From the NCBI RefSeq assembly GCF_023155855.1, contig NZ_JAKNUT010000005.1, positions 124,001-188,000 of the forward strand: 64,000 nucleotides of DNA, read 5' to 3'. The notes below the pieces were generated by a model. It was given only the letters and a program-made list of their open reading frames with translations. It did no database searches and was not told the origin of the DNA. This document shows, one piece after another, positions 5,909 through 57,607 of the stretch; the stretch's first letter is position 1; each line of letters opens with the position of its first letter. Source of the stretch: Microbacterium aoyamense. Lineage in GTDB: Bacteria > Actinomycetota > Actinomycetes > Actinomycetales > Microbacteriaceae. The position numbers and the translations under genes are program-made.

Positions 5909-7213
<1,305 letters not shown>

Positions 7214-20584: not shown

Positions 20585-22035
20585 TGACGACGTTCGGCAA
20601 GGCACTCGAGCGGATCGAGACGCCCATCCCCGGTCTCGTGCTCTGGGAGCTGCCCGTCCACGGTGACAACCGCGGATGGTTCAAAGAGAACTGGCAGCGC
20701 GAGAAGATGCTCGCCGCAGGGCTCCCCGACTTCGGCCCCGTCCAGAACAACGTGTCGTTCAACGACGCCGTCGGAACGACCCGTGGCATCCACGCCGAGC
20801 CGTGGGACAAGTGGGTCTCGGTCGCCACAGGCCGCATCTTCGGCGCATGGGTCGATCTGCGCAAGGGCCCGAGCTTCGGCGCAGTGTTCACGGCCGAGAT
20901 CGATCCTTCGCGTGCGATCCTCGTCCCCCGTGGCGTCGGAAACGCCTATCAGACCCTCGAGCCCGACACCGCGTACACCTATCTCGTCAACGACCACTGG
21001 TCCCCCGACGCCGCGTACACCTTCCTCAACCTCGCCGACGAGACCGCTGCGATCGCGTGGCCGATCCCGCTCGCCCATGTCGAGATCTCGGCGAAGGACC
21101 TCGCACACCCGCGCCTCGCGGACGTCGTGCCGATGGCGCCGCGCAAGACACTCGTTCTGGGCGCGAACGGACAGCTCGGTCGCGCCCTGCGAGCGGAGTT
21201 CGGCGACGCCGCACACGTCGAGTACGCAGCGCGCGAGGATCTGGATCTGATGTCGAGCGACCTCGCGACGGCGCGGCGCTGGCGCGACTACGGCACGATC
21301 ATCAACGCCGCGGCGTACACCGCGGTCGATCTCGCCGAGACGGCGGACGGACGGGTGGATGCCTGGGCCGCCAACGTCACGGGAGTGAGCCGACTGTCGC
21401 AGATCGCCGCAGCGCACGGCCTCACCCTCGTGCACGTCTCGAGCGACTACGTCTTCGACGGCAGCGCCGAGGGCTCCTACGCCGAAGACGCGGTGGTCTG
21501 CCCGCTCGGTGTCTACGGCCAGACCAAGGCGGCGGCGGACGCGATCGCCGCGACGGTGCCGCGGCACTACATCGTGCGCACGTCGTGGGTCATCGGCGAG
21601 GGCAAGAACTTCGTCGGCACCATGGTGTCCCTCGCCGAACGCGGCATCGATCCGAAGGTGGTCGACGATCAGATCGGCCGCCTGACCTTCACCGAGGACA
21701 TCGCCCGCGGCATCCTGCATCTGCTCGCGGACGACGCCCCCGCGGGGACCTACAACCTCACCGGCGCGGGAGCGCCCACGTCGTGGGCGGAGATCGCGCG
21801 GCAGGTGTTCGCCCTCTCCGGACACGATTCAGCGCGAGTGACGGGCGTCTCCACGGACGAGTACTTCGCGGGCGCGCCTGGACCGGTAGCCCCCCGACCC
21901 CGCAACAGCGTGCTGGATCTCACGAAGATCGAGGCTGCGGGATTCGAACCGCGGGATGCCGCGGCTTCGCTCGCTCGCTACGTCACGAGCCTTCGTGCTC
22001 AGGCCTCGGAGAGCACCCCGTCGGATTCGCGATAG
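20584..22035 (+). CDS. rmlCD: bifunctional dTDP-4-keto-rhamnose 3,5-epimerase/reductase (RmlC-RmlD fusion)
   Basis: A 483-residue fusion. Residues 1 to about 185 are RmlC-like: HGDNRGWFKENWQREK, VQNNVSF and TRGIHAEPWDKW, the last carrying the catalytic histidine, then PRGVGNAYQTLEP. From about residue 187 an RmlD domain begins with KTLVLGANGQLGRAL, followed by VSSDYVFDGS and YGQTKAAAD (Tyr-x3-Lys). The pair performs the last two steps to dTDP-L-rhamnose. Such fusions occur in several actinobacteria, while RmlC and RmlD are separate in most bacteria. ATG at 20584 overlaps the rmlB stop. The last 37 bases overlap, on the opposite strand, the end of the acetyltransferase gene. Confidence 0.95.
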
Positions 22036-22601
22036 AGCGCCCCCGTCTGCGGGCACTCCCACGAACCGGGCCCGGTCTCTGTCAGAGGAACGCCCGCCTT
22101 GCCCACCCAGGCGATGCGGCGTGCGGGGACCCCCACGACGAGCGCGAAGTCGGGGACATCCTTCACGACGACCGCGCCGGCGGCGACCGTCGCCCAGGCG
22201 CCGATCGTGACGGGGGCGACGCACGTCGCCCGGGCGCCGATCGAAGCCCCTTCGCGGATCTGAACCCCGACCGGCTCCCAGTCATGCGCACTCTTGAGCG
22301 TGCTGTCGGGATTCACCGCACGGGGGTAGGTGTCGTTGGTCAGAACGACCGCCGGCCCGATGAAGACGCCGTCGGCGAGCCGTGCCGGCTCATAGACGAG
22401 GGCGTAGTTCTGGACCTTGCAGTTGTCGCCGAGGACCACTCCCGGGCCGATGTACGCACCGCGGCCGATGATGCAGTTCTGACCCAGCGAGGCGTTCTCG
22501 CGCACCTGGGCCAAGTGCCAGATCGACGATCCGTCGCCGACGGATGCCTGCGGTGAGACATCGGCGGAGTCGACGATGCGCGCCGGAGCGGGCTGGTTCA
22601 T
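21999..22601 (-). CDS. wbpD: UDP-amino-sugar N-acetyltransferase, WbpD/WlbB-like
   Basis: A 200-residue left-handed beta-helix acetyltransferase. Isoleucine-patch hexapeptide repeats run through most of it (for example SSIWHLAQVRENASLGQNC, IGRGAYIGPGVVLGDNC, VQNYALVYEPARLADGVFIG, then GASIGARATCVAPVTIG and VVKDVPDFALVVGVPAR). The order and wording match WbpD/WlbB, which acetylates the 3-amino group of UDP-GlcNAc3NA. The matching oxidoreductase and aminotransferase lie at 55379 and 56362. ATG at 22601 has GAGGGAGA upstream, and TAGGAT at 22645-22650 is a likely -10. The 3' end overlaps rmlCD by 37 bases tail to tail. Confidence 0.8.
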   Translation of the reverse strand: MNQPAPARIVDSADVSPQASVGDGSSIWHLAQVRENASLGQNCIIGRGAYIGPGVVLGDNCKVQNYALVYEPARLADGVFIGPAVVLTNDTYPRAVNPDSTLKSAHDWEPVGVQIREGASIGARATCVAPVTIGAWATVAAGAVVVKDVPDFALVVGVPARRIAWVGKAGVPLTETGPGSWECPQTGALYRESDGVLSEA

Positions 22602-22719
22602 GATGTCTCCCTCGTCGCCTCCGCTGATCGAGGAGACGATCATGATCCTAGCGGCGCGCACACGGGGGCGCCCGCTGTCGATTGGCGGGGACACCCCTCA
22701 CATCGATATCGTCTCGAGA
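22602..22719. promoter_or_regulatory. divergent promoter region, acetyltransferase versus CAP/CWB2 gene
   Basis: A 118-bp gap. On the minus strand TAGGAT (22645-22650) suits a start near 22638 and a leader of about 37 nt for the acetyltransferase. On the plus strand TATCGT (22707-22712) lies seven bases before the GTG at 22720, suggesting a leaderless message, with TTGGCG (22682-22687) as a possible -35 at 19-bp spacing. Confidence 0.45.
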
Positions 22720-29550: not shown

Positions 29551-29557
29551 GACGACC

Positions 29558-31936: not shown

Positions 31937-33229
31937 TCAGGCGGCGCCGACGACGATCCTCGGCGTGCCGGCCCAGGCCGCGGCATCCGACGCGTTCCGT
32001 CCGTCGACGAGGAGACGGATGCCCGGCACATCCGTCGGCGCGAGGGTGCGGTACAGAGCGTGGTCGGTCTGGAGAACAGCGACATCGGCGGGCTCGCCGA
32101 GCGCGTAGGGCTCGAAGCCGAGGCTGCGCAGTTCGTCATCGCTGTACAGCGGGTCGTGGACGAAGACCTCGGCCCCGCGTTCGCGCAGCGCGGCGGCGGT
32201 CGGGAACACGCCCGAGAAGGCGGTCTCCTTGACTCCCCCGCGGTACGCCGCCCCGAGGATCACGACACGAAGCCCTTCGAGCGAGCCGAGGATGCCGGCG
32301 GCCTGGGCGACGAGCCGCTCGGGCATCGACGCGTTCAGCAGTCGCGCGGTGCGGACGATGTCGGCGTCGGGATCGGTCGAGAGGTACAGCCGCGGGTAGA
32401 CCGGGATGCAGTGTCCGCCGACGGCGATTCCGGGCCTGTGGATGTGGCTGTACGGCTGCGAGTTGCACGCTTCGATGACCTGGTAGACATCGATGCCGTG
32501 CTCCGCGGCGAACAGGCCGAACTGGTTCGCGAGTCCGATGTTGACGTCGCGATAGGTCGTCTCGGCGAGCTTGGCCATCTCGGATGCCTCGGCGCTGCCG
32601 AGGTCCCACACGCCGTTCGGGCGCGCGAGGTCGTCGCGCTCGTCGAACTGCAGCACTGCCTCGTAGAACTCGCGGGCGCGGCGCGCGCCCTCTTCGGAGA
32701 GCCCGCCGATGAGCTTCGGGTACTTGCGCAGGTCGGCGAACACACGGCCGGTGAGCACGCGCTCGGGTGAGAACACGACGTGGAAGTCGCGACCTTCGAC
32801 CAAGCCCGAGACCTCTTCGATCATCGGCTTCCAGCGACCGCGGGTCGTGCCGACCGGCAGAGTCGTCTCGTACGAGACGAGGGTTCCGGGCGTGAGGTGC
32901 TGCGCGAGCGAGCGGGTCGCGGCATCCATCCACGCGAAGTCGGGCTCCCAGGTCGCGTCGTCGACGAAGAGCGGGACGACGAGGACGACCGCGTCGGCGC
33001 CGGGGATCGCCTCGGCGTAATCGGTCGTCGCGCGCAGGCGCCCCGTCGGCACGAGCTCGGTGAGCTTGTCCTGCAGGTGGTCCTCGCCGGGGAAGGGCTC
33101 GACCCCCCGATTCACGCTGTCGACCGTTGCGGGATTGACGTCGACGCCGATCACCTCGTGCCCGGAGTCGGCGAACTGGACTGCGAGCGGGAGCCCGATC
33201 TTTCCGAGGGCCACGACGGCGATGCGCAT
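31937..33229 (-). CDS. UDP-N-acetyl-hexosamine 6-dehydrogenase (WecC/WbpA type)
   Basis: A 430-residue nucleotide-sugar dehydrogenase. The NAD motif is VALGKIGLPLAV, followed by YETTLPVGTTRG, the FSPERVLTGR signature, and the catalytic-cysteine motif GGHCIPVYP (Cys274). The GGHC-I-P form marks the UDP-ManNAc/UDP-GlcNAc dehydrogenase branch (WecC, WbpA) rather than UDP-glucose dehydrogenase, whose motif appears in the first gene of the window. It would make UDP-ManNAcA or UDP-GlcNAcA; a UDP-GlcNAc 2-epimerase follows at 37209, and WbpB/E/D-like genes are present, so both routes are open. ATG at 33229 is leaderless by appearance, with TAGACT seven bases upstream (33237-33242). Confidence 0.88.
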   Translation of the reverse strand: MRIAVVALGKIGLPLAVQFADSGHEVIGVDVNPATVDSVNRGVEPFPGEDHLQDKLTELVPTGRLRATTDYAEAIPGADAVVLVVPLFVDDATWEPDFAWMDAATRSLAQHLTPGTLVSYETTLPVGTTRGRWKPMIEEVSGLVEGRDFHVVFSPERVLTGRVFADLRKYPKLIGGLSEEGARRAREFYEAVLQFDERDDLARPNGVWDLGSAEASEMAKLAETTYRDVNIGLANQFGLFAAEHGIDVYQVIEACNSQPYSHIHRPGIAVGGHCIPVYPRLYLSTDPDADIVRTARLLNASMPERLVAQAAGILGSLEGLRVVILGAAYRGGVKETAFSGVFPTAAALRERGAEVFVHDPLYSDDELRSLGFEPYALGEPADVAVLQTDHALYRTLAPTDVPGIRLLVDGRNASDAAAWAGTPRIVVGAA

Positions 33230-37208: not shown

Positions 37209-38270
37209 CTAGCCCGCTGTCAAAGCCTCGATGACGCGCTCCGCCGCGTGTCCGTCGCCGTAGGGCGTCTCGTCCGTGTCGGCGGGACGCGGACGCGAGA
37301 CGCCCGCCGCGATCTCCGCCGCGGTGTCGGCCAGAACGTTCCACCCCAGCTCGATCGTCTCGACCCACTCGGTCTCGGTGCGCACCGTCGTGCACGGCAC
37401 GCGCAGCAGGAAGGCCTCCTTCTGCAGGCCGCCCGAGTCGGTGACGACGCCGGCACTCGCCTGCACGGCGGCGATGAGATCGGGATACGCGAGCGGCGCA
37501 TGCGCGTGGAGCGAACCCTGCGTCAGATCGATTCCGTGCGCAGCGGCCTTCGCGACGACGCGCGGATGAGCGAGGAGGATGACCGGGCGGTCGAGACCTG
37601 CGAGACCCTCGACGACCGCACGCAGGCGCTCCGGATCGTCGGTGTTCTCGGCGCGGTGGATCGTCGCGACGTAGAAGCCTTCGGGCTCGAGCCCGAGCTC
37701 TTCCACCAGCACCGACGGGGCGCCGGCGAGGCCGTCCCGCACGTCGAAGAGGACGTCGGTCATGACGTCGCCCACGAGGATCGTCCGCTCCGCGAGACCC
37801 TCATGCGCGAGATGGTCGACCGCGACCTGCGTCGGGGCGAGCAGCAGGTCGGCCGCATGGTCGGTGAGCACGCGGTTGTGCTCCTCGGGCATCCGGCGAT
37901 TGAAGGAACGCAGTCCCGCCTCGAGGTGCGCGACGGGGAAGTGGAGCTTGACCGCGCTCAGTGCCGCGGCGACGGTCGAGTTCGTGTCGCCGTACACGAG
38001 CACCCAATCCGGCTGATGCTCGTCGAACACCGCGTCGAGGGCCGCGAGCATCGAGCCCGTCTGAACGCCGTGACTGCCGCTGCCCACCCCGAGGTGCACG
38101 TCGGGCGCGGGGATGCCGAGGTCCTCGAAGAACACATCCGACAGCATCGCGTCGTAGTGCTGGCCCGTGTGGACGATGACGTGCTTCACACCAGCCGCGG
38201 CCGCCGCATGTGCGATCGGAGCGAGCTTGACGAACTGGGGGCGCGCGCCGACGACGCTGACGATCTTCAC
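37209..38270 (-). CDS. wecB: UDP-N-acetylglucosamine 2-epimerase (WecB/WbpI family)
   Basis: A 353-residue non-hydrolysing 2-epimerase. It starts KIVSVVGARPQFVKLAPI and has HTGQHYDAMLSD, VYGDTNSTVAAA, the HLEAGLRSFNRRMPEEHNR block, VATIHRAENTD and TDSGGLQKEAF, all strongly conserved in WecB/MnaA. It turns UDP-GlcNAc into UDP-ManNAc; the related WbpI acts on UDP-GlcNAc3NAcA instead, and the two cannot be told apart by eye. The dehydrogenase at 31937 and the WbpB/E/D-like genes make either substrate possible. GTG at 38270 has no ribosome binding site; TAGACT lies eight bases upstream (38279-38284). Confidence 0.9.
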   Translation of the reverse strand: MKIVSVVGARPQFVKLAPIAHAAAAAGVKHVIVHTGQHYDAMLSDVFFEDLGIPAPDVHLGVGSGSHGVQTGSMLAALDAVFDEHQPDWVLVYGDTNSTVAAALSAVKLHFPVAHLEAGLRSFNRRMPEEHNRVLTDHAADLLLAPTQVAVDHLAHEGLAERTILVGDVMTDVLFDVRDGLAGAPSVLVEELGLEPEGFYVATIHRAENTDDPERLRAVVEGLAGLDRPVILLAHPRVVAKAAAHGIDLTQGSLHAHAPLAYPDLIAAVQASAGVVTDSGGLQKEAFLLRVPCTTVRTETEWVETIELGWNVLADTAAEIAAGVSRPRPADTDETPYGDGHAAERVIEALTAG

Positions 38271-38278
38271 GGGACCCC

Positions 38279-38284: not shown

Positions 38285-38308
38285 CGTTCGCGACCGCGGC
38301 CCGCCGTG

Positions 38309-45141: not shown

Positions 45142-46229
45142 GGACGGGTGGCCTTTCGTTCGCGATTCAGAACGTAGAGAACATAGCGGCGCAGCGTGGA
45201 CTCGCGCGCGAAGCTGTGGATCAGGTCGGGCGTCAACCAGCGCTCACGCCGGCCCGCGCGGGCGGCGTGGGCGACAGCATCCACCACCCCGACGACGTCG
45301 GGGTGGTCGCGAAGAGTGTCGAGGATGCCGCGGTCCTGGATGTTGAACGGGGCGAGCGTCCGCGGCGCAAGCGCCTGCAGCCGCGCGAGCAGGTCTGCAA
45401 GGGAGCGCACCTCGGCATCCCCGTCCCAGTCCTCGGGCTTCGGTCGGGCACGCGCGTAGCCGATGACGCTCACCCTGATCAGCTTCACGGCGAGCGCGCG
45501 GCGATGCGCGGCCCCGAGGCTCGCGGCGACGCCCTCGTCGAGCAGTCGGCTGATCGGTGCGAACGTCTCCTCGATCGTCAGCCGCGCGTGGGTCGTGCGC
45601 TCGGCAGCGTCCACGCCGATCACGTAGCACGGCGATCCGGGTGCACGATCGACCCTCGACGACTGCGCGAAGAGGCGGATCCCGAATTCGAAGTCCTCGC
45701 CGACGCGCACGCCCTCCGTCATCCGGAGCCCCATCGCGCGCATGGTCGCCGTGCGGATGAGGCCGAGCGGGGCCGTGCGGTAGAACAGCCGGTCTTTCGC
45801 GGCGTCCAGGCGGCGACGGCGTCGCAGTCGTGCGAGCGGGTTCGGCATGACGGGCAGACCGTCGATGCGGATCGCCCCGATGAGCGCATCCGGACTCTCT
45901 CGACGCGCGTGGGCGACCCATCGCGACATCGTCCCCGCCTCGAGGAAGTCGTCCGACCCCATCACCGAGCAGTACTCCGCATCGACGAGGTCGAGCCCGC
46001 GGTTGAATGGGCCGGCCGGGCTGCGGATGCCGTCGGAGAACTCCTCGACGCGCCAGGCACCGTCGATGCCCGCGAGTCGCTCGGCGAGGGGCTCCCCCGG
46101 AATCCCGTGCGCGACGACCGTGACCCGCACGTCGTCACGCACGTCGGGGTCGGCCAGCACGGATCGCACCGCGCGCTCGAGCGGACGCGAGGGGTCGTGG
46201 CACGCGATCACGACATCGACGAACGGCAT
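45138..46229 (-). CDS. glycosyltransferase, GT2 family, paralogue of 40527
   Basis: A 363-residue GT-A enzyme starting PFVDVVIACHDPSRPLERAV. It has the block DGIRSPAGPFNRGLD and YCSVMGSDDFLEAG also found in the gene at 40527, then VGEDFEFGIRLFAQSSRV. The C-terminal third is helical and basic. ATG at 46229 shares one base with the stop of the ABC transporter gene upstream (TGATG); a GTG three bases earlier is also possible. The longer in-frame extension through the ABC gene is rejected. Confidence 0.85.
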   Translation of the reverse strand: MPFVDVVIACHDPSRPLERAVRSVLADPDVRDDVRVTVVAHGIPGEPLAERLAGIDGAWRVEEFSDGIRSPAGPFNRGLDLVDAEYCSVMGSDDFLEAGTMSRWVAHARRESPDALIGAIRIDGLPVMPNPLARLRRRRRLDAAKDRLFYRTAPLGLIRTATMRAMGLRMTEGVRVGEDFEFGIRLFAQSSRVDRAPGSPCYVIGVDAAERTTHARLTIEETFAPISRLLDEGVAASLGAAHRRALAVKLIRVSVIGYARARPKPEDWDGDAEVRSLADLLARLQALAPRTLAPFNIQDRGILDTLRDHPDVVGVVDAVAHAARAGRRERWLTPDLIHSFARESTLRRYVLYVLNRERKATRP

Positions 46230-48013
46230 CACGTGAGCCCGGCCAGCTGGGCCTGCTCGGCGAAGTTCGGCACCGCGGCCACGAGCTCTTCGAATGTCCC
46301 CCGCGCCGCGATCGTGCCGTCCTGGAGGAAGCAGATCTGGTCGCTGTCGCGGATCGTCGAGAGGCGGTGCGCGACGGAGATGATCGTGACCTCGCCCTTG
46401 AGTCCGCGGATGGATGCCGTGACCAGCGACTCGGTCTTGGTGTCGAGGGCGCTCGTGGCCTCGTCGAGGACGAGGATGAGCGGGTCGCTGTAGAGGGCGC
46501 GGGCGATCCCGAGCCGCTGCCGCTGACCGCCCGACAGAGCGAGTCCGCGTTCGCCGATCCGACCGCGCATGCCGCCGTCGCGCGCTTCCACGGTGCCCCA
46601 CAGCTGAGCCTTCTCGAGAGCAGCGCGGACTTTGTCGAAGTCGATGTCGTCGTCCTCCCACGACAGCGCGACGTTCTGCGCGATCGTGCCGTCGAAGAGG
46701 GCGACCTCCTGCGGAACATAGCCGACCCGCGCGCGCCACGCAGCGAGGACGTCGACGAGGTCCTGGTCGTCGACGCGCATCGTGCCGCGCTGGGGGACGA
46801 GAAGCCCGAGGAGGACGTCGACGAGCGTGGACTTGCCGGCGCCCGAGGACCCCACGAGCGCGAGCGAGGTTCCGATGGGGATGTCGAGATCGATGCCGTG
46901 CACGGCCGGGGTGTCCTCGTGCCCGGGGTAGCCGAACGATACATCGCGCAGGCGCAGGTGCGTGGGCTCACCGACGATGGGCTCGCGCCCGAGCTTCTCG
47001 GCCGCCGCGATGTGGATCTGCGAGGCCTTGATGTCGAAGATCACGGCCTGCACATGCGGGACGTTGGCGGTCGTCGTCACGACGATCGACTGGAAGCCCG
47101 TGAGCGACGGGACGAGCCGGAATCCGGCGACGGCGAACAGCGCGACCGAGGCGATGGCCGACTGCATGCCGCCCGTGAGATAGCCGAGGGCGCCGACGAG
47201 GAGGAATCCGCCGACGAGGGCGGCGTTGAGCACGAACGACGGCAGCGATCCGAGGAAGTTCATGTTCGCGCGGGCGCGCGTGCTGAAGGACCGGTTGTAC
47301 TGGATGACGTCGGCGACCTCGGAGATCTTGTTGCGGAGGGTGATCTCTTTGAGGGCCTGCATCATCTCGGTCATGAGTGCGACCGTCTTGAGGGAGTAGT
47401 CGCGCGAGACGCGACCGGCCTGCACGGACCGCGCAGACACGACCCAGTAGAGGAGCGCCATGATGCCACCGAGGTACGCGACCGTGATGAGAGCGGTCAG
47501 CGGCTGCGCCACGACGATGATGGCGAGGATCAGGACGAAGCTCACGATGAGCGCGGGCAGCTGGATGATCGGCAGGAGGAAGCCGGTTGTGGCGTTGGCG
47601 ATCCCGACGTCCGCGATCCGGACGATCTGCGACGTGTTGCGGGCGAGCCGGTGGGTCCAGGGCGACTTGATGTACGAATCGAACAGCTGACGGCCGATCT
47701 CGAGTTCGAAGGATGCGAACCGACGTGTCGCGAACCACTGCTGCAGCAGCGCGAGCACCGACTTCACGAGGATCAGCACCGCGACGACGGCGAAGACCCA
47801 GATGAACGACTCGGGGCCGACCGTGCCGATCACGGGTAGTCGGATCGGCGCACCCGAGATCATCGGCGCGAGGCTCACTGCCAGCAGCATGATCGCCGTG
47901 ATGTCCAGGACCGTCAGCAGGCACGACACGATCACGTATCGCACGAGGTAGCGGCGCGCGTCGACGGGGAGCCACACCATGAGTTCACGGAACGTGCCAG
48001 CTACGAGCTTCAT
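46229..48013 (-). CDS. ABC exporter/flippase, MsbA/PglK-like
   Basis: A 594-residue half-transporter with an N-terminal membrane domain of about six helices (residues 20-310) and a C-terminal ATPase (about 350-590). Walker A is GSSGAGKST, the signature LSGGQRQRLG, Walker B LVLDEATSALD and the switch histidine AHRLST. The family includes lipid A and lipid-linked oligosaccharide flippases such as PglK. Placed among glycosyltransferases, a lipid-linked glycan is its likely cargo, giving the window a third export route besides Wzm/Wzt and Wzx. ATG at 48013 has no obvious ribosome binding site; with 39 bp to the upstream glycosyltransferase it is probably transcribed from the promoter at 49259. 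Confidence 0.87.
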   Translation of the reverse strand: MKLVAGTFRELMVWLPVDARRYLVRYVIVSCLLTVLDITAIMLLAVSLAPMISGAPIRLPVIGTVGPESFIWVFAVVAVLILVKSVLALLQQWFATRRFASFELEIGRQLFDSYIKSPWTHRLARNTSQIVRIADVGIANATTGFLLPIIQLPALIVSFVLILAIIVVAQPLTALITVAYLGGIMALLYWVVSARSVQAGRVSRDYSLKTVALMTEMMQALKEITLRNKISEVADVIQYNRSFSTRARANMNFLGSLPSFVLNAALVGGFLLVGALGYLTGGMQSAIASVALFAVAGFRLVPSLTGFQSIVVTTTANVPHVQAVIFDIKASQIHIAAAEKLGREPIVGEPTHLRLRDVSFGYPGHEDTPAVHGIDLDIPIGTSLALVGSSGAGKSTLVDVLLGLLVPQRGTMRVDDQDLVDVLAAWRARVGYVPQEVALFDGTIAQNVALSWEDDDIDFDKVRAALEKAQLWGTVEARDGGMRGRIGERGLALSGGQRQRLGIARALYSDPLILVLDEATSALDTKTESLVTASIRGLKGEVTIISVAHRLSTIRDSDQICFLQDGTIAARGTFEELVAAVPNFAEQAQLAGLT

Positions 48014-48052: not shown

Positions 48053-49252
48053 CTAGTGTCCCACGTCGCTCCTGAACGGCGGATCCGACCGGATGCCGAG
48101 GAACCCGCGCAACGCGTCCGCGCTCCGGCGGCCATCGTGGACCTCCCTCACGAACGCGGGACCCCGCGCCGCACGATCGACGAACGGTGCCGGGTCGGCG
48201 ACGACCTCGCGAAGGAGCGCCTCGAGCTCGTCGGCCCGCGCCTGGACGACGGGAAGATCGAGACCGGTGCGCTCGCGGACGATGCGCCTCGTCTGCTCGG
48301 CGACATGACTGATCACGACGCGCCCCGCGGCCATCGCCTCGCACGTCGCGACGCCGTAGATGCCGAGCGAGAACTGGTCGAGCACGATGTCCGCGTCGCC
48401 GTAGACGCTCGGCATCCGGTCGGCCGGCACGCCGTGGATCTCGCGGTATTCGATGAGTCCCTCTTCGTCGAGACGCCGCAGCGCCGGGGCGACCAGGGCG
48501 CTCCCCTTGAGTCCGCTGTTGCTCGGAGCGTGGACGACGATCGGCCGCTCGCGCGACAGCGGCGGCTGCTTCGCCGCCCGACCCCAGCGGTCGACGTCGA
48601 CGACGACGGGCAGCCACTCGGCGCCGGGAAGCTCGCCCAGCAGATCGGGCGTGGAGACGAACACAGGCAGACCCGCGGCATCGGCGAGGGCGTGATTGCG
48701 CGCCGTGATCTCTTCGAGCCGACCGCTGTCGTCGTAGCCGCCCGCGTGGAACGGCGAGTCCCGCTCGACCTGCGCGTGGGCGCTCGGGCGCCTGATGTCG
48801 CTCCCATGAAAGAGGAGCGCGACGCGGATGCCCGCAGCGGTCATCATGTCGAGTTGGCCGCTCACCGTGCCGTCGGTGCCGAACAGGTGCCGACCCGATT
48901 CGACGATCACATGCGTGAACCTCCGCAGGACGGCGCGGCGCTGGCGGGCGCGCCAGAACCCGTTCGTGCGGAAGAGCACGGTGTCCACTACGTGGTCCGC
49001 GGGATACGCGAACACGTCCTGCGGAGTGCGGTACATGAAGTCCGACGCGGAGACTCCCGGCAGTCGCTCTGCGGCGCGCGCCCACGCGTATCCCTGCCCC
49101 GCAGAGTTGACGGGACCGATCAGCAGTCGGACGGGGGTGCGACCGGACGACGTCGTCCCCGCGGCGCGCGCGGCCCGTCGGTCCTGCCGACGGCGCCACG
49201 AGCGCTGCACGAGGGGGATGCGCTGCAGGCGGATTCTCAGCGCACGGAGCAT
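48053..49252 (-). CDS. glycosyltransferase-like protein, GT-B fold
   Basis: A 399-residue protein with a basic N-terminus, then VRLLIGPVNSAGQGYAWARA. It contains ESGRHLFGTDG and LLFHGSDIRRP in the first half, VHAPSNSGLKGSALVAPALRR at the junction, and VLDQFSLGIYGVATCEAMAAG in the donor-site position, where the acidic E-x7-E of GT4 is only partly kept (one Glu in CEAMA). It is probably a diverged GT4 enzyme. ATG at 49252 is leaderless by appearance, with TAGGGT six bases upstream (49259-49264). It leads the five-gene run down to 42773. Confidence 0.72.
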   Translation of the reverse strand: MLRALRIRLQRIPLVQRSWRRRQDRRAARAAGTTSSGRTPVRLLIGPVNSAGQGYAWARAAERLPGVSASDFMYRTPQDVFAYPADHVVDTVLFRTNGFWRARQRRAVLRRFTHVIVESGRHLFGTDGTVSGQLDMMTAAGIRVALLFHGSDIRRPSAHAQVERDSPFHAGGYDDSGRLEEITARNHALADAAGLPVFVSTPDLLGELPGAEWLPVVVDVDRWGRAAKQPPLSRERPIVVHAPSNSGLKGSALVAPALRRLDEEGLIEYREIHGVPADRMPSVYGDADIVLDQFSLGIYGVATCEAMAAGRVVISHVAEQTRRIVRERTGLDLPVVQARADELEALLREVVADPAPFVDRAARGPAFVREVHDGRRSADALRGFLGIRSDPPFRSDVGH

Positions 49253-50592: not shown

Positions 50593-52578
50593 TCAGTCGG
50601 CCGGCGCGACGTCGAGCGGGTCGATGTCCCAGGGCGCGGTCGTCGGCATGCGACCGGCCGGCGGGACCCAGTCTTCGCGGAGCAGCTGAGCCCATTCGCT
50701 GAACTCCGGGTCACGCGTGATGCGTGCGAGCGTATCGAGCTGCCACGAGTGGATGACGTGGTAGGTCGAGTTCTCCCAGAACTTCCGCTGGCAGTACGCC
50801 TCGTCCGCGCAGTAGTAGGAGATCCCGCCGGGATTCCGGATCGACGGCATCCAGTCCAGCACGGTCTGCGCACCGCCGTCGAGATAGCGCTCGACTTCGG
50901 GGTCGCCCGTGTACTTCCAGTAGTCGTAGAGGCCGAAGACGGCGAACGCGTGGCCGTTGAGCACGACGAGCGGCGGCACACCGCCCTTCGCGTACTCCTC
51001 GAAGACGAGGGACCCGTTGCGGACGAAGGTGGACCACGGCCCCGTCTCGGCGCGCGGCTGGGTGAAGCTGAGCCATGTCGCGTGCGCGGCGACATCCCAC
51101 CGCTCTTCGCCCGTCTCGACGGCCAGGCGCGTGAAGAGCGAGAGCGCCTCTCCCTGCGCCATCCCGGACCACCACGGCGGCGACAACCGCCGATCGTCAT
51201 AGGACCACGGGAACTTGTACGGGAACCACCAGGCGTCGCCACGGGGAACGCGGATGGCGGCGAGCTGCTCGGCATGGCGCACGGCGGACCGCAGCCAGCG
51301 CGTCTCGCCCGTGCGCTCGTACTCGAGCAGCGCCGATATGCCGTACTGGGCATAGGCGACGGGGTGATCCTCACGGATGCGCGTGTACACCCGGTAGTAG
51401 ATGAGCAGCCCGGTCGGATCGAGTCCGCGCGCGGGATTGCGGACGTCGACGGGAGGACGATCGCTGTACGGTGCGTCGACGTCGGTCGCGAAGTCCCACC
51501 CGCCCGACGCCCACGTCTCGTCGATCACCGACGTGTCGGGGGCGACGCAGGGCTCGAGGCTCGCGGCGGCCTCCGAGACGACGCCGGTGCCGCCGAGCGT
51601 GCGGACCTCGTCCGCAGGTCGCTGGGCGAGCGCGGAGTGGATGCCGGCGGGGATGCAGTCGCGCGACGTGATGAACAACGGCACACCCCAGTGGCCCGCG
51701 AGCGCTGCTCCCGCGAGCGCATCCGGGTAGTCCATGCCGCCCGCGAGCAGGGTTCCGCTCGGTCCGTCGGCGGGGAAGAACGCCTGATTGATCAGCGCGG
51801 CGGTGTCGAACCGCGATGGACCGCCGTAGCGATTCACGACGAACCCGACGGCCTGCAGCTGCCCCTGGATGTCGGCGCTCACCGCCCCGTAGCCGCCCGC
51901 GATCGACACCGACTCGACGCCGAGGCCGGCGAGCATCGCCATCGTGGCGGCGGGGATGCTCGATGCCGCGCCGTCCACGAGCACGACGGGCGCGTCCATC
52001 GCCGCCGCCGCGCCGGACGCCGCGAGCGCATCGGGGAACTGGCGCCCCGTCGCCAGGAAGACCGTCGACGCACCTTGGGCCCCGAAGGCGTCCTCGACGA
52101 TCGAACGCCCGGTTCCGTAGCGGTCGGTCTCGGCCATGCGCGTCGTGGGGGCGATCGTCTCGAGCGTCGCGACGACGGCATCCGACACGACCGACCTGCC
52201 TCCGACCACGACGATTCGCTGAGGCGCGCGGGCGCGGATCTCTTCCTCGACGACGGCGGGCAGGGCGTCCGGCGCCGTGACGAGCAGCGGCCCGCCGAAG
52301 TGCGCCGCCGCGGCTGCGGCCGAGAGCGCGTCGGGGAAGTCCAGGCCGGTGGCGACGTAGAGCGCCTCGACGCCCACGGGGAACTCCTCCGCGATGCGCG
52401 CGGCCGTCTCGTACCGACTCGCTCCCGAGAGCCGCTCGGCCTGCGCCGACGAGGTCTCGAGGACCGGCCTCGGTGCGGCTGTGGCGGTGGAGGGCACGAC
52501 GATGGATGCCACGAGCACCGCGATGACGGCGGCCGACCGCCACCTGGGCCGACTCCTCTGCATCCTCATGCCCCTCAT
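50593..52578 (-). CDS. CWB2-anchored D-glucuronyl C5-epimerase-like protein
   Basis: A 661-residue exported protein. The signal peptide is about residues 12-35. Three CWB2 repeats occupy about 47-345 (RLSGASRYETA, FPDALSA, PLLVT, VVVGGRSVVS and so on). Residues about 380-640 match the C-terminal catalytic domain of D-glucuronyl C5-epimerases (PF06662): WWSGMAQGEALSLFTRL, VLNGHAFAVFGLYDYWKYTG, GGISYYCADEAYC, and YHVIHSWQLDTLARIT, equivalent to the YH-HI-QL block of heparosan epimerases. These enzymes flip D-glucuronate to L-iduronate within a polymer. It ends a tightly coupled operon (ATGA overlap with the GT-C gene). Combination of an epimerase with wall-binding modules is unusual. Activity, polymer and direction are inference; Tyr residues in SYYC and TYHV are candidate catalytic residues. 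Confidence 0.85.
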   Translation of the reverse strand: MRGMRMQRSRPRWRSAAVIAVLVASIVVPSTATAAPRPVLETSSAQAERLSGASRYETAARIAEEFPVGVEALYVATGLDFPDALSAAAAAAHFGGPLLVTAPDALPAVVEEEIRARAPQRIVVVGGRSVVSDAVVATLETIAPTTRMAETDRYGTGRSIVEDAFGAQGASTVFLATGRQFPDALAASGAAAAMDAPVVLVDGAASSIPAATMAMLAGLGVESVSIAGGYGAVSADIQGQLQAVGFVVNRYGGPSRFDTAALINQAFFPADGPSGTLLAGGMDYPDALAGAALAGHWGVPLFITSRDCIPAGIHSALAQRPADEVRTLGGTGVVSEAAASLEPCVAPDTSVIDETWASGGWDFATDVDAPYSDRPPVDVRNPARGLDPTGLLIYYRVYTRIREDHPVAYAQYGISALLEYERTGETRWLRSAVRHAEQLAAIRVPRGDAWWFPYKFPWSYDDRRLSPPWWSGMAQGEALSLFTRLAVETGEERWDVAAHATWLSFTQPRAETGPWSTFVRNGSLVFEEYAKGGVPPLVVLNGHAFAVFGLYDYWKYTGDPEVERYLDGGAQTVLDWMPSIRNPGGISYYCADEAYCQRKFWENSTYHVIHSWQLDTLARITRDPEFSEWAQLLREDWVPPAGRMPTTAPWDIDPLDVAPAD

Positions 52579-53996
52579 CGCCCGGTGCTCTCGTAGAGCA
52601 CGAACCGGTCGTTGCGTGCCACCTCGGCGTAGTCTCGCGCGAGGATCGCCTGCATCCGCTCATCACCCACCGACGTGGCCACGATCCACTCGGGACGTTC
52701 CTCTTCGACGAAGCCGAGCGACTCGTCGAGCACACGGGGATCGTTGGACCCCCACCACTCCTGCATCGTGAAGTAGCGCTGAACGGGCAGGGTGCCGGCA
52801 TTCAGGAAGAAACGCGCGTCGAGGTTCCAGCCGTAGACGCCCTGGTGCTCGGACTCCGGGACCCCCGCGAGGATGTCCTCGACGTCCGCCGTGTAGGCGG
52901 GCTCGTTCGCGCGGACCTGTGCCGCGGCCTCGCGCCCCGACATCGTCCACACCAGCGCGACGGCGACGATGAGCGCCGCGGCGAGGACGTGCAGCCGCAA
53001 CCGGCCGGTGACCGGCTGCAGCGCGAGGGCCACGCCCAGCGCGACCCCGGGAACAGCGACCTGGAGGTAGTGGAAGTAGCCGGTCGTCGACAGCAGGAGA
53101 GCGCCGGCCGTGGATGCCGCGAGGATCCACCCGAGGAGAAGGAACCGCCCCCGTTTGCGGAACTGCGCATCGACGAATCCGCCGACGAGCGGCGCGAAGA
53201 TGCCGATGATCGCGAGATAGACGAACCCGTTGACGAAGATCCGGTCGAGCGTGATGACCTCGTTGCCGCGATACGCGGCGCTGAACAGGAACGTCCCGTC
53301 GATCATCTCGTCGAGCGCGCCGACGATGGCGAATCCCAGCAGGAACGCTCCGCAGACGACGACGAAGCCCGCGAGGGATGCCAGGAGCGGCGCCCACAAG
53401 CGCCGGCGGCGGACGAGGGTCCAGACGAAGAAGGCCAGGAACATTCCGAAGATGGGCAGGGCGTTGTTGATGCGGATGAAGACGACATAGCCGAACGCCG
53501 CGCCCGCGGCGGCGAACCACCACAAGCGCGCCTCGCGCTGCGTCATCCACTCCCGCGTGAGGACGAACATCGCCAGCGCGATGAAGGGAAGCGAGTACTC
53601 CTCGCTGAGGTTGCCGTGCTCGTACGCCGGGGCGAGGAAGGCGATCGATGCCGCGATCACGGTCCACGCGCCGACGGCTCCCGTCATCCGGCGCGTCATC
53701 GCGTAGAGCAGAGCGAGCGTCGCGTAGAGGAAGAGGATCTGCAGGATGAAGATGCCGATCCGACCCGGGACGAGCACCTGCGCGAGCCATTGGATGACGA
53801 ACAGGCCCGGACCCTTGTGGTCCCAGATGTCGACGTAGAGCGTCTGCCCTTGCGCCATCGCGGTCCCGATGAGCCGGAACATCGCGCTGTCGCCGCCGAA
53901 CCAGGGACGCAGCGGGCTGGTCGTGCCCGAGAGGAGGGTCACGAACAGCGCAGAGACGCCGAGCAGTGCGGCGTTGCGTGCGATGGGGCGAGTCAT
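52575..53996 (-). CDS. GT-C family membrane glycosyltransferase (GT39-like)
   Basis: A 473-residue membrane protein with about ten hydrophobic segments and a soluble tail of about 90 residues. The first periplasmic-type loop has FGGDSAMFRL and VDIWDHKGPGLF; the DHK-PG wording is typical of PMT-like GT-C transferases that use polyprenyl-phosphate sugars outside the membrane. It follows gtrA and a GtrB-like GT2 gene, the classic three-part system for decorating surface glycans. ATG at 53996 overlaps the gtrA stop (ATGA) with AAGGA upstream, and its own stop overlaps the epimerase start. The sugar moved is unknown; a uronate or a diacetamido-uronate is possible given the operon. Confidence 0.83.
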   Translation of the reverse strand: MTRPIARNAALLGVSALFVTLLSGTTSPLRPWFGGDSAMFRLIGTAMAQGQTLYVDIWDHKGPGLFVIQWLAQVLVPGRIGIFILQILFLYATLALLYAMTRRMTGAVGAWTVIAASIAFLAPAYEHGNLSEEYSLPFIALAMFVLTREWMTQREARLWWFAAAGAAFGYVVFIRINNALPIFGMFLAFFVWTLVRRRRLWAPLLASLAGFVVVCGAFLLGFAIVGALDEMIDGTFLFSAAYRGNEVITLDRIFVNGFVYLAIIGIFAPLVGGFVDAQFRKRGRFLLLGWILAASTAGALLLSTTGYFHYLQVAVPGVALGVALALQPVTGRLRLHVLAAALIVAVALVWTMSGREAAAQVRANEPAYTADVEDILAGVPESEHQGVYGWNLDARFFLNAGTLPVQRYFTMQEWWGSNDPRVLDESLGFVEEERPEWIVATSVGDERMQAILARDYAEVARNDRFVLYESTGR

Positions 53997-54424
53997 CCAC
54001 GGTCCTTCGCGTCGGCGGGTGTGCGGAACACGAATGCGCTGTAGAGCAGGTAGTTCCAGATGAGCGAGACGACGGTCGCGGCGAGCTTGGCGATCAGCAG
54101 CGCCCACATCTCGGGCAGCAAGGGAACCAGCCACAGGGAGACGATCCAGATCACGAGCGGCTGGAGCACCCACAGTGCGAACATCGTCACGACGAGGAAG
54201 CGCACGGCCTGCCCGATCATCCCGGGGCCTGCGCGGAATGTGTAGAAGCGGTTGACGAAGAAGCTGAAGGCCAGCGCGACCGTCGTGGAGATCATGTTCG
54301 CGGGGATCACCGCCATGTTCAGCCACGTCAGAGCGAGGAACAGGCAGATGTCGATCGCCGTGTTCGCGAGCCCCACCACGATGAATCGCCAGGGCCGCTG
54401 CATCCGGCTAGCGGGGGTCGCCAC
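53993..54424 (-). CDS. gtrA: GtrA-family polyprenyl-phosphate sugar flippase
   Basis: A 143-residue protein with four hydrophobic segments. It has the family start RFIVVGLANTAIDICLF, a SFFVNRFYTFRAG loop and an IWNYLLYSAFVFR end, as in GtrA. It is thought to flip the lipid-linked monosaccharide made by GtrB-like enzymes. GTG at 54424 has GGAG seven bases upstream and overlaps the GT2 gene by 17 bases; an ATG at 54403 lies just past that stop but has no ribosome binding site. Confidence 0.92.
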   Translation of the reverse strand: MATPASRMQRPWRFIVVGLANTAIDICLFLALTWLNMAVIPANMISTTVALAFSFFVNRFYTFRAGPGMIGQAVRFLVVTMFALWVLQPLVIWIVSLWLVPLLPEMWALLIAKLAATVVSLIWNYLLYSAFVFRTPADAKDRG

Positions 54425-55382
54425 GATGATGCTCCTGCACGACGTAGACGGGCCGACGCTTGGACTCGGTGAAGATGCGGGCGACGTACTCGCCGATGAT
54501 GCCGAGCGAGATGAGCTGCACGCCGCCGAGGAACAGGATGACGGCCATCATCGACGGGTAGCCCGCCAGATCGATGCCGAAGAAGATCGTGCGCAGCAGG
54601 ATCACGACGAGATAGATGAAGGCGGCGAGCGAGACGATGAGGCCGAGGAACGTCGAGATGCGCAGCGGTGTCGTGGTGAAAGAGGTGAATCCGTCGACGG
54701 CGAGCCCCATCAAGCGGGGGTAGTTCCATTTCGTGCGGCCGGCGGCGCGGGGCGCGCGATCGAACAGGATCTCCTTCTTGCGGAACCCGATCCAGCTGTA
54801 CAGGCCCTTCGTGTACCGCTCGGACTCGCGCAGGCGGACGAGGACGTCGATGCACCGTCGGTCCAGGAGGCGGAAGTCCCCCGTGTCGGTCTGGATCTCG
54901 ATGCGGGTCGTGCGCTGCAGGAGGCGGTAGTACCAGCGCGAGGATGCCCGCTTCACGGCGCTCTCCCCCGCCCGCGTCCTGCGCCGCGCGTAGACGTCGT
55001 CGTAGCCTTCCTCCCACGCCGCGAGCATCTCGACGATGAGCGCCGGCGGGTCCTGCAGGTCGACATCGATGAGGATGACGGCGTCCGACGCGACGACATC
55101 GAGACCGGCGAGCATCGCGCTCTCTTTGCCGAAGTTTCGGCTGAGACGCAGGATCGAGACGCGCGGATCTGCCAGTGCGAGACGGGCGAGACGCTCAGGA
55201 GTCGAATCGCGGCTTCCGTCGTCGACGAAGAGGATCTCGAAGACGTAGGAGTGGAGACCCGCGAGCACGGCGCTGACCTCGGTGTGGAACCGGTCGACGA
55301 CCTCCTCCTCGTCGAACACCGGGACCAGCAGTGTCACGGTGCGGCGCAGCTGATCGTCGCCGCCGGCCGAGGGCTCGGTCAT
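54408..55382 (-). CDS. polyprenyl-phosphate glycosyltransferase, GtrB/DPM1-like
   Basis: A 324-residue membrane GT2 enzyme. The cytosolic domain has LLVPVFDEEEVVDRFH, FVDDGSRDST, LSRNFGKESAMLAGL, the DVDLQDPP metal motif and the GDFRLLDRRC segment, all typical of GtrB/ArnC-like enzymes. Two C-terminal transmembrane helices (about 230-300) separated by FFGIDLAGYPS complete the usual plan. It loads a sugar onto undecaprenyl phosphate. ATG at 55382 overlaps the oxidoreductase stop (ATGA). The upstream aminotransferase and oxidoreductase suggest the sugar could be an amino-uronate, but this is inference. Confidence 0.92.
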   Translation of the reverse strand: MTEPSAGGDDQLRRTVTLLVPVFDEEEVVDRFHTEVSAVLAGLHSYVFEILFVDDGSRDSTPERLARLALADPRVSILRLSRNFGKESAMLAGLDVVASDAVILIDVDLQDPPALIVEMLAAWEEGYDDVYARRRTRAGESAVKRASSRWYYRLLQRTTRIEIQTDTGDFRLLDRRCIDVLVRLRESERYTKGLYSWIGFRKKEILFDRAPRAAGRTKWNYPRLMGLAVDGFTSFTTTPLRISTFLGLIVSLAAFIYLVVILLRTIFFGIDLAGYPSMMAVILFLGGVQLISLGIIGEYVARIFTESKRRPVYVVQEHHRGDPR

Positions 55383-56362
55383 GGCGCGAGCGCCGTGCCG
55401 GAGCCCGCCGAGGCGAGCGCGGCTTCCACGACGGTGAGCGTGCGAAGGCCCTGCTGCATCGTGACGACATCGCTCTGCTCGCCGAGCACGGCGTCGCGGA
55501 ACGCCTCGTGCTCGACCCGGAGCGGCTCGCGCTTCGCGAAGGCGTATCGCGTGACATCCCCCTCGGACACTCCGCGGAAGACGCTCATCGACTCCCACTC
55601 GACGGCGACCGTGCCGTTCGCGTAGAACGTGAGATCGCCCGTCGACGTGTCGGCGACGAACGCGCCCTTCTCGCCCGTGACGATCGTCACGCGCTCCTTC
55701 ATGGGGCTCAGCCAGTTGACGAGGTGATTGACGATCACGCCGTTCGCAAGGCGCCCCGTCATCGCGATCATGTCCTCGTGGTCACGGCCGCTCTGGAACG
55801 CCGTCTGCGCCGAGATCGTCGCGTAATCGCTCTGCGCGACCCAGGCGGTGAGGTCGACGTCGTGCGACGCGAGGTCCTTCGCGACACCCACGTCGGCGAT
55901 GCGCGACGGGAAGGGTCCCTGGCGGCGCGTCGCGATCTGGTAGACCCCACCGAGGTCGCCGGCGGCGATGCGACGACGCAGTTCCTGCAGTGCGGGGTTG
56001 AATCGCTCGATGTGACCGACCGCGCCGACGAGACCCGCGTCCGCGAACGCCGACACCATGCGCTCGCCCGCCTCGACGGTGTGAGCGATCGGCTTCTCGA
56101 CGAGCGTGTGCACGCCTGCCGCCGCGAGGGCGAGCGCGGCCTCCTCGTGGAAGCGGGTGGGCACGGCGACGACGGCGGTGTCGATGCCCGCCGCGATCAG
56201 CGCGTCGATGTCGGGCAGGATCGGCAGGTCGCCCGCGACCCCGTGCGGGTCGCCGCCGGGGTCGGCGATCGCGACCAGCTCGACACCATCGAGCTCGCGC
56301 AGCACGCGCGCGTGATGGCGGCCCATCATCCCCACGCCGAGAAGGCCCGCGCGCAGCGTCAT
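55379..56362 (-). CDS. Gfo/Idh/MocA-family sugar dehydrogenase (WlbA/WbpB-like)
   Basis: A 327-residue NAD-dependent oxidoreductase with an N-terminal Rossmann fold (AGLLGVGMMGRHHARVL), the VEKPIA lysine motif and GHIERFNPAL, then DVGVAKDLASHDVDLTAW with the Asp-His pair of the family. This wording fits nucleotide-sugar members such as WlbA/WbpB, which oxidise C3 of UDP-GlcNAcA before amination. It is joined head to tail with a DegT aminotransferase, the partner expected in that pathway. ATG at 56362 shares one base with the upstream stop (TGATG). Confidence 0.8.
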   Translation of the reverse strand: MTLRAGLLGVGMMGRHHARVLRELDGVELVAIADPGGDPHGVAGDLPILPDIDALIAAGIDTAVVAVPTRFHEEAALALAAAGVHTLVEKPIAHTVEAGERMVSAFADAGLVGAVGHIERFNPALQELRRRIAAGDLGGVYQIATRRQGPFPSRIADVGVAKDLASHDVDLTAWVAQSDYATISAQTAFQSGRDHEDMIAMTGRLANGVIVNHLVNWLSPMKERVTIVTGEKGAFVADTSTGDLTFYANGTVAVEWESMSVFRGVSEGDVTRYAFAKREPLRVEHEAFRDAVLGEQSDVVTMQQGLRTLTVVEAALASAGSGTALAP

Positions 56363-57462
56363 CAGGCGCCCGCCTTCGCGACGGCGCCTACAGCGGCGAC
56401 GATCCGGTCGAGATCAGCGGACGACAGCGAGGGGTGAACCGGCAGAGAGACGACTTGGGATGCCGCGACCTCGGTCACGGGCAGGTCGAGCCCCGGGGCG
56501 TACGGGGCGAGCGACGGGAGCCGGTGGTTCGGGATCGGGTAGTAGACCCCGGCGCCGACCTGGTGCTCATCCTTGAGCGCCTTCACGAACCCGTCGCGGT
56601 CATCGAGAACGCGGACGGTGTACTGGTGGTAGACGTGCCGGGCTCCGTCGGCGACGGGGGGCACCACGACGCCCTGCAGGTTCGCGTCGAGGAACGCCGC
56701 GTTCTCGCGGCGCGTCTGCGTCCAGGCATCCACCTTCGTCAGCTGCACGCGACCGATCGCCGCGTGAATGTCGGTCATGCGCGCGTTGAAGCCGACGACC
56801 TCGTTCTCGTACTGGCGCTCCATGCCCTGGTTGCGCAGCAGCTTGACCATGCGCGCGAGCTCGGGCGTCGCGACCGTCACCATGCCGCCCTCGCCGCTGG
56901 TCATGTTCTTGGTCGGGTAGAGGCTGAACATCGCGAACTCGCCGAACGTGCCGACCGGCTGCCCGTCGAGCGCCGCACCGTGCGCCTGTGCTGCGTCCTC
57001 GTAGAGCGCGACCCCGTGCTTCTCGGCGATCGCGCTCAGCTCGCGCATGCGCGCCGGGTGACCGTAGAGATGTACGGGAAGGATGCCGCGGGTCCGCGGC
57101 GTGATGGCCGCCTCGACGGCCGCGGGGTCGAGCGTGAACGTCTCGGGCTCGATGTCGACGAAGACGGGGGTCGCTCCGGTCAGCGCAACGGAGTTGCCGG
57201 TCGCGGCGAACGTGAAGCTCGGCACGATGACTTCGTCGCCCGCCTTCACTCCGGCCGCCAGGAGTCCGAGGTGCAGGCCCGCGGTACCCGAGTTGACCGC
57301 GACGCTCGCGCGCCCGTTCACGAAGTGGTCGCCGAACTCCTGCTCGAAGGCCGCGACCTCGGGCCCTTGCGCGACCATCCCGCTGCGCAGGACGCGGTCG
57401 ACGGCCTCGCGCTCGTCGTCGCCGATGATCGGCTTGGCAGGGGGGATGAAATCGACCGGCAC
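56362..57462 (-). CDS. DegT/DnrJ/EryC1 aminotransferase (WbpE-like)
   Basis: A 366-residue PLP-dependent sugar aminotransferase. It starts VDFIPPAKPIIGDDE and has a NSGTAGLHLGLLA segment, VPSFTFAATGNSVALTGATP, YEDAAQAHGA, and the PLP lysine in SLYPTKNMTSGEGG. It matches WbpE/WlbC, which aminate the 3-keto sugar made by the neighbouring oxidoreductase; the N-acetyltransferase needed next lies at 21999. GTG at 57462 has AGAGAGG upstream. It is the first gene of a six-gene coupled operon ending in the C5-epimerase. The aminotransferase class is certain; the exact sugar is inference. Confidence 0.9.
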   Translation of the reverse strand: MPVDFIPPAKPIIGDDEREAVDRVLRSGMVAQGPEVAAFEQEFGDHFVNGRASVAVNSGTAGLHLGLLAAGVKAGDEVIVPSFTFAATGNSVALTGATPVFVDIEPETFTLDPAAVEAAITPRTRGILPVHLYGHPARMRELSAIAEKHGVALYEDAAQAHGAALDGQPVGTFGEFAMFSLYPTKNMTSGEGGMVTVATPELARMVKLLRNQGMERQYENEVVGFNARMTDIHAAIGRVQLTKVDAWTQTRRENAAFLDANLQGVVVPPVADGARHVYHQYTVRVLDDRDGFVKALKDEHQVGAGVYYPIPNHRLPSLAPYAPGLDLPVTEVAASQVVSLPVHPSLSSADLDRIVAAVGAVAKAGA

Positions 57463-57607
57463 AGGTGTGACCTCTCTCAGGCGGGGACCGCCCGATGGGG
57501 CGGGGATGCGCCGGTCGCCGCGCGGCGGGGTGGTGCCGAGCGCCGGGTGAGCCGGGGCCGTTCGATTGTAGCCGGACACGCCTTGGCAACCGCCGCGCCG
57601 ACACCGC
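57463..57607 (-). promoter_or_regulatory. promoter and long leader of the aminotransferase-epimerase operon
   Basis: A 145-bp gap. TACAAT (57565-57570), a consensus-like -10 on the minus strand, puts the start near 57558 and leaves a leader of about 96 nt, much longer than elsewhere in the window. The leader is very GC-rich and contains a CCGCCC/GGGCGG hairpin with a four-base loop, about 35 nt ahead of the start codon. Confidence 0.5.

Follow-up and report, generated by a model that had tools for sequence, protein, structure and literature searches.

A 64 kb stretch of the Microbacterium aoyamense genome (contig NZ_JAKNUT010000005.1, positions 124,001 to 188,000; hereafter the window, with coordinates counted from its first letter) poses the question of which polymer a relative of the glucuronyl C5-epimerase (GLCE) of animals might modify at the surface of a bacterium. 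The protein concerned (661 residues) joins a signal-peptide-like N-terminus, judged by eye, and three tandem CWB2 repeats (PF04122, 155 bits over three stretches) to a C5-epim_C domain (PF06662; residues 450-631, profile positions 7-184 of 188). This domain scores 91.4 bits against a Pfam cut-off of 23.3 and is found once in the whole genome (E 1e-26). The answer to which we give a slightly better than even chance is that of a wall-tethered C5-epimerase of GLCE fold which would act, at the polymer level, on amino-uronates of a teichuronic-acid-like polymer.

The epimerase domain and its operon

Residues 462-631 are aligned by phmmer with GLCE of zebrafish (PDB 4pw2) and human (6hzz), the catalytic part alone giving an E value of 1e-8; the motif blocks on which an earlier first-pass annotation of this DNA had based its proposal of a GLCE-type domain are indeed those of GLCE. 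An AlphaFold2 model of the catalytic part (residues 346-661, alignment of 61 rows) is mostly helical, with a predicted local distance difference test score (pLDDT) of 92.4 and a predicted template modelling score of 0.91, and its eight best Foldseek rows against the PDB are all GLCE. In VIA-align, which re-examines Foldseek matches only, so that absence from its list means little, the model matches human GLCE (6hzz_B) with Z 28.2 and a root-mean-square deviation of 2.7 over 265 positions, compared to Z 17.5 for the best non-GLCE entry, and the GLCE rows stand at least 10 Z units above every other entry listed. The first-pass annotation had named a PF06662 score below threshold together with a different fold as grounds for giving up its proposal; on both points the result is the opposite.

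The catalytic residues of human GLCE are E499, Y500, N510, Y560 and Y578 (PMC13308652; this and the other sources are cited from their accessible parts). All five are kept in the window protein, as E528, Y529, N541, Y589 and Y606; for Y560 the local phmmer alignment gives Y588 and the multiple alignments give the invariant Y589, which was used. Ten other Microbacteriaceae domains keep them too, one Y500F substitution excepted. More widely, among 63 rows from 61 loci (three rows lacking residues at the catalytic columns, some rows overlapping, and one of 62 short loci, L040, missed by the profile), the commonest letters are E in 51, Y in 43, N in 59, Y in 50 and Y in 58 rows, with most variation in the Y500 column (V in 10 rows, C in 6). 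Taken with the model, this makes membership of the GLCE-family C5-epimerase class highly probable. The resemblance to animal GLCE (EC 5.1.3.12) thus covers the PF06662 domain, the helical catalytic fold and the five residues. It does not extend to the N-terminal half, which in the three-domain, dimeric animal enzyme is a beta-hairpin followed by a beta-sandwich (PMC13308652) and here a signal-peptide-like stretch with CWB2 repeats, nor to the bacterial wall setting and, probably, the substrate.

The epimerase gene is the last of six open reading frames on the minus strand (50593-57579), whose coupling, proposed in the first-pass annotation, is borne out by overlaps of 1, 4, 17, 4 and 4 bases. 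These consist of TGATG between aminotransferase and oxidoreductase, ATGA at three junctions (oxidoreductase/glycosyltransferase family 2 (GT2), GtrA/GT-C and GT-C/epimerase) and 17 bases at a GTG start between GT2 and GtrA. For the aminotransferase, whose frame opens at 57579, the start at 57462 chosen in that annotation is the likelier one. Five of its six gene identities are upheld by Pfam matches: next to the CWB2-epimerase these are DegT (405 bits), GFO_IDH_MocA (70), Glycos_transf_2 (95) and GtrA (66). We take PDB entry 7bvj to be GnnA. The sixth, the third member of a GtrABC/Pgf-type trio with GT2 and GtrA, has no family match in Pfam or NCBIfam, and its AlphaFold2 model, built from two sequences, is unusable (pLDDT 37); it is a candidate GT-C transferase, to go by its many predicted helices and a GT-C motif.

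Gene company of the epimerase

The first-pass annotation had taken glucuronate to be the substrate and the lipid-linked-sugar trio to be the partner of the epimerase. Because of the gene company seen across genomes, we now look instead to N-acetylated amino- or diamino-uronates. The window holds homologues of all five kinds of enzyme of the Wbp/Wlb-type pathway to uridine diphosphate (UDP)-2,3-diacetamido-2,3-dideoxymannuronate (UDP-ManNAc3NAcA), at 31937, 55379, 56362, 21999 and 37209 (Table 1). The 6-dehydrogenase resembling those for UDP-N-acetylmannosamine (UDP-ManNAc) is found in 15 of 15 epimerase-bearing Microbacterium, as against 49 of 198 genomes across the genus, and in all 8 other epimerase carriers of the family, as against 23 of 95 family genomes. 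Fisher tests within samples, with our own genome excluded (it is included in the other tallies) and kinship ignored, give p 7e-4 for the genus (5/5 vs 43/192) and 2e-3 for the family (4/4 vs 18/90).

Linkage follows the same line. In 12 of the 15 Microbacterium the 6-dehydrogenase is no more than 20 kb from the epimerase (18.7 kb in the window's own case), a position that UDP-glucose dehydrogenase occupies in none of the 15, common as it is in the genus (89 of 99 genomes). Seven Microbacterium loci (L153/L234, L157/L238, L162/L239, L231, L233, L235 and L236) have the epimerase beside, or at most 3.4 kb from, the 6-dehydrogenase and a WecB-type 2-epimerase gene; in L153/L234, L231, L233 and L162/L239 it lies directly between the two, as do two tandem epimerases in Agromyces cavernae (L158). 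A decoy test covered 141 distinct PF06662 domains with 10 kb on either side, at a threshold of 20% of the self-score. In this test and in the stricter tally given below, near-identical copies were merged and matches below 100 bits with our profile dropped; in the stricter tally a distance of 0 stands for overlapping stop-to-stop frames. WecB was near 28 of them, the 6-dehydrogenase 18, the aminotransferase 16, the oxidoreductase 11 and the acetyltransferase 8; by comparison, UDP-glucose dehydrogenase, RmlA and RmlB were each near 2, and two further nucleoside diphosphate-sugar genes near 0 and 2. Three or more of the five amino-uronate genes are near in 12 loci and all five in L171, L196 and L203. 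Distant loci are undercounted, since sequences akin to those of the window pass the thresholds more readily. Unfused epimerases with the same gene company are seen in Bowdeniella (L184), Arthrobacter (L196), Ornithinibacter (L203) and genome G241 (L021), so that clustering of CWB2 genes alone does not explain it.

In a tree of 109 rows scoring at least 195, with a single main match per row, the window protein groups first with L240 (support 100/100, 76% identity) and then with L160 (support 97/87), which is the same locus as L243. Both L240 and L243 have the gene order hexapeptide acetyltransferase, aminotransferase, oxidoreductase, epimerase; in L243 the epimerase has a GTG start that runs into the stop of the oxidoreductase, a start also available, among several, in L240. 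Downstream of the epimerase, L240 carries a counterpart of window 48053-49252 (65%) as its first gene and one of the ABC exporter (85%) as its second. The window thus resembles a version of this polymer operon that has the GT2-GtrA-"GT-C" trio and one CWB2 gene as extras, gained here or lost there. Of the neighbours, then, the aminotransferase and oxidoreductase are conserved with the epimerase in part, and the trio is not. Besides the window, a single further genome (L162/L239) has it next to an epimerase; it occurs without one in L148 and L149, and was found in none of ten other family-level 20 kb loci (L012-L021), among which L021 alone has the aminotransferase and oxidoreductase. A conserved six-gene unit was rejected on these grounds. 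The trio is probably accessory, giving the polymer of this strain a side sugar delivered on a lipid carrier.

The CWB2-epimerase fusion recurs within the Microbacteriaceae (Agromyces, Leifsonia, Mycetocola, Diaminobutyricibacter, Microbacterium) and extends to Bowdeniella and two Chloroflexi bins (L178, L181). The latter are placed outside the Microbacteriaceae clade in the tree, so that the fusion may have formed, or been passed on, on more than one occasion. Carrier strains include Microbacterium flavescens JCM 3877 (L153) and Agromyces italicus DSM 16388 (L151). PF06662 itself is patchy, with 15 of 366 Microbacterium, 9 of 299 family, 22 of 297 order (21 above cut-off) and 31 of 396 phylum genomes, our own genome being counted in each. 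The scan of relatives with organism names kept 80 of 142 relatives, and the order- and phylum-level loci exclude several second matches per genome. One Microbacterium copy (L237, genome G1259) is broken by a stop codon, which hints at gene loss. Paired epimerase genes lie side by side in Agromyces humatus (L156), A. cavernae (L158), Kineosphaera limosa (L187) and, on opposite strands, G335 (L073). The archaeon Haloferax massiliensis (L228) has a PF06662 protein, with no amino-uronate gene seen in its 20 kb stretch at the scores used. A formylglycine-generating-enzyme-like gene (PF03781, scanned in L012) adjoins the fused epimerase at L012:8552-9361, with a homologue at L014:8633-9454, in two genomes of one genus.

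Possible substrates

The domain class, fold, catalytic residues, fusion, gene overlaps and gene company described above were computed here; catalysis, export, the polymer, the substrate and the binding of that polymer by CWB2 we infer. The protein would be exported and held on a wall polymer by its three CWB2 repeats, from where the C-terminal domain would remove and return the C5 proton of uronates already built into the polysaccharide. The cluster may make a teichuronic-acid-like polymer with an N-acetylated amino- or diamino-uronate, UDP-N-acetylglucosamine (UDP-GlcNAc) being processed by the 6-dehydrogenase, 3-dehydrogenase (MocA), aminotransferase, acetyltransferase and 2-epimerase homologues; the glycosyltransferases of the cluster would join the sugars, and the chain would leave the cell, perhaps through the ABC exporter. 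N-acetylmannosaminuronate (ManNAcA) residues in the polymer would then become 2-acetamido-2-deoxy-L-guluronate (L-GulNAcA). In general terms, the predicted reaction is D-ManNAc(3NAc)A to L-GulNAc(3NAc)A, or else D-GlcNAc3NAcA, the gluco analogue, to the L-ido product L-IdoNAc3NAcA. Judging from gene company, we hold an amino-uronate substrate to be an even call, and the fuller proposal, in which a polymer-level C5-epimerase of N-acetylated (di)amino-uronates is tethered by CWB2 to the very wall polymer that it edits, to fall a little short of even.

Several observations weigh against an amino-uronate substrate. Among the amino-uronate enzymes of the window, the only one to exceed the cut-off of a specific NCBIfam model is WecB (252 vs 210), the oxidoreductase scoring 202 vs 450 and the 6-dehydrogenase 256 vs 750. 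At stricter scores, an amino-uronate gene pair lies within 10 kb of only 13 of 26 distinct fused domains and any such gene near only 10 of 115 unfused ones, most loci showing none. In the seven other Microbacteriaceae fusion genomes of the family sample, fusion and 6-dehydrogenase never share a contig at a distance of 20 kb or less. The decoys GLF (6) and GlfT2 (4) are also sometimes near the 141 PF06662 domains, and the linkage of the fused forms is inflated by a general tendency of CWB2 genes to lie among wall-polymer genes. UDP-glucose dehydrogenase is present in 23 of 23 tested carriers (21 of the window's type, 2 of another type below its model's cut-off). Lastly, the enzyme activity and the polymer are predictions from sequence and model, and the characterised relatives, GLCE and the RED65 enzyme discussed below, act on D-glucuronate (GlcA) in the accounts available.

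The main rival, in our view an unlikely one, is accordingly that the wall polymer contains GlcA and that the tethered enzyme makes L-iduronate (IdoA) as in heparan sulfate. Family, fold and catalytic residues are the same as in GLCE, and the one tested bacterial member, RED65, turns GlcA into IdoA (PMC13308652, PMC4432689). As the first-pass annotation pointed out, the window could also supply UDP-GlcA, UDP-glucose dehydrogenase being encoded at its start, albeit some 50 kb from the epimerase and beside galactan genes; the enzyme of some type is present in every tested carrier, and two loci from a different family (L083, L084) have its gene no more than 10 kb from the epimerase. Against this stand its presence in most Microbacterium anyway, its absence from within 20 kb of the epimerase in the 15 carriers of that genus, and the fact that the amino-uronate genes, though rarer, are the commoner neighbours. 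Genomes G977 and G1175 were considered as carriers without UDP-glucose dehydrogenase, which would exclude GlcA, and were rejected, as both have the second type.

It is improbable, though worth weighing, that the amino-uronate association is a by-product of CWB2 clustering and that the true target of the epimerase is a different polymer, such as the galactan of 1217-7045 or a glycan that the GtrA/GtrB trio modifies. This would fit the seven CWB2 proteins in 64 kb, the CWB2 genes on either side of the 6-dehydrogenase in L149 (a locus in which no epimerase was seen), and the presence of GLF near 5 of 26 fused domains; it fits poorly with the unfused epimerases in the same company and with a genome-level co-occurrence that persists where epimerase and 6-dehydrogenase are unlinked. 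About as improbable, finally, is a domain that binds or cleaves the polymer, as a lectin-like protein or lyase would, instead of epimerising it. Epimerisation and beta-elimination can share their first step, and related helical folds include hydrolases, the lower VIA-align rows being GH76, GH8 and unsaturated glucuronyl hydrolase; the lead of the GLCE rows over all of these and the retention of the five catalytic residues in the fused clade, one Y500F aside, argue for an epimerase.

Other genes of the window and known systems

The window also encodes a wall-protein island around the polymer genes, with CWB2 proteins at 22576-24375, 24409-27264, 29610-31883, 33272-37138, 49288-50508, 50593-52578 and 57608-62887, of which one has a CAP domain, one leucine-rich repeats (1759 residues) and one a weakly RCC1-like region. 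At 1217-7045, a GlfT2-like galactofuranosyltransferase and a UDP-galactopyranose mutase lie beside UDP-glucose dehydrogenase, which suggests an additional galactofuran polymer. Two membrane acyltransferases, HGSNAT-like (28351-29580) and Acyl_transf_3 (38309-39496), are possible wall-polymer acetylation genes.

Table 1. Positions and assignments of the window features discussed in the text
Position	Strand	Feature	Basis
10..1281	+	UDP-glucose 6-dehydrogenase, TuaD-like (below the model's cut-off); start maybe before the window; GlcA source if GlcA is the substrate	
21999..22694	-	Hexapeptide acetyltransferase homologue, 69-76% identical to the gene preceding the aminotransferase in L240, L243 and L196	Sequence comparison
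31937..33229	-	UDP-N-acetylhexosamine 6-dehydrogenase; nearest specific models UDP-ManNAc dehydrogenase (below cut-offs, 256 vs 750); co-occurs with epimerase	NCBIfam
37209..38270	-	WecB-type UDP-GlcNAc 2-epimerase (252 vs cut-off 210), C-terminal part of open reading frame 37209-40286; start approximate	NCBIfam
46229..48013	-	ABC exporter related to ABCB, 85% identical to exporter downstream of epimerase in L240; possible lipid-linked glycan flippase	
48053..49252	-	Putative glycosyltransferase (Pfam, below cut-off), 65% identical to gene right after epimerase in L240	
49288..50508	-	CWB2-only protein between epimerase and glycosyltransferase	Pfam
50593..52578	-	CWB2-epimerase, 661 residues: signal-peptide-like N-terminus, three CWB2 repeats, GLCE-type C5-epimerase domain	Pfam, phmmer, alignment, model
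52575..53996	-	Many-helix protein, proposed GT-C transferase (candidate class); ATGA overlap with epimerase	Predicted helices
53993..54424	-	Small membrane protein, GtrA-type (PF04138)	Pfam
54408..55382	-	GT2, likely polyprenyl-phosphate sugar synthase; nearest models PgfS and ArnC-type transferase (both below cut-off)	Pfam, NCBIfam
55379..56362	-	Gfo/Idh/MocA sugar oxidoreductase; nearest model UDP-GlcNAc 3-dehydrogenase (202 bits vs cut-off 450)	Pfam, NCBIfam
56362..57579	-	DegT-type sugar aminotransferase; PDB relatives include WbpE	Pfam, PDB comparison

The alginate C5-epimerases AlgG and AlgE, which turn mannuronate into guluronate in the periplasm or outside the cell, likewise work at the polymer level, and the proposed conversion of ManNAc(3NAc)A to GulNAc(3NAc)A would be its amino analogue. 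Their right-handed beta-helix is unrelated to the GLCE fold and is not matched by our mostly helical model. The Pseudomonas pathway to UDP-ManNAc3NAcA (WbpA, B, E, D and I) comprises the same enzyme kinds as the window, kinds that stand together in L171, L196 and L203; those of the window are spread across some 35 kb, and their specificities are predicted from homology. The wall of Streptomyces griseus contains a teichuronic-acid-like polymer with a disaccharide repeat of N-acetylgalactosamine and ManNAc3NAcA, made by utr genes (PMC13274773). As in the window, these include an aminotransferase and an epimerase, although the accessible account names no C5-epimerase, and for Microbacterium such a polymer is predicted from genes.

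Bermanella marisrubri RED65_08024 is described, in an account of 2026, as the only identified bacterial GlcA C5-epimerase (PMC13308652), with its natural polymer given as unknown (PMC4432689). It is said to share the GLCE mechanism by sequence alignment and is likened here by description; the descriptions available mention no wall anchor, unlike that of the window protein. Halobacterium Agl32, which makes iduronate in a surface glycan, is set apart, again by description, since it lacks the GLCE catalytic residues and acts on a lipid-linked tetrasaccharide (PMC13308652). The S-layer of Clostridium difficile is anchored by CWB2 repeats through the anionic polymer PSII (PMC8881574). L-GulNAcA occurs in a Vibrio exopolysaccharide, for which C5 inversion of ManNAcA has been proposed (PMC3901696); a 2015 review has the enzyme as unknown in one of its legends, though its text puts forward VpsB (PMC4432689). 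L-Gulosaminuronate is reported from a handful of other glycopolymers, including, to judge by a reference title, the wall of Halococcus (PMC3210612). No paper tying the PF06662 family to wall polymers or amino-uronates was among the matches listed, in a search that left subscription literature mostly outside.

A wall-tethered clade with recurrent gene company offers a testable natural substrate for bacterial enzymes of the GLCE type. If an amino-uronate polymer is indeed what the CWB2-epimerase edits, the fold of the heparan sulfate epimerase would have a wider substrate range, and the family would be a candidate for the unassigned step to L-GulNAcA in bacterial glycans, with L-gulo (or L-ido) amino-uronates as products. 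The teichuronic acids of such walls would then be retuned after their assembly, as alginate is.

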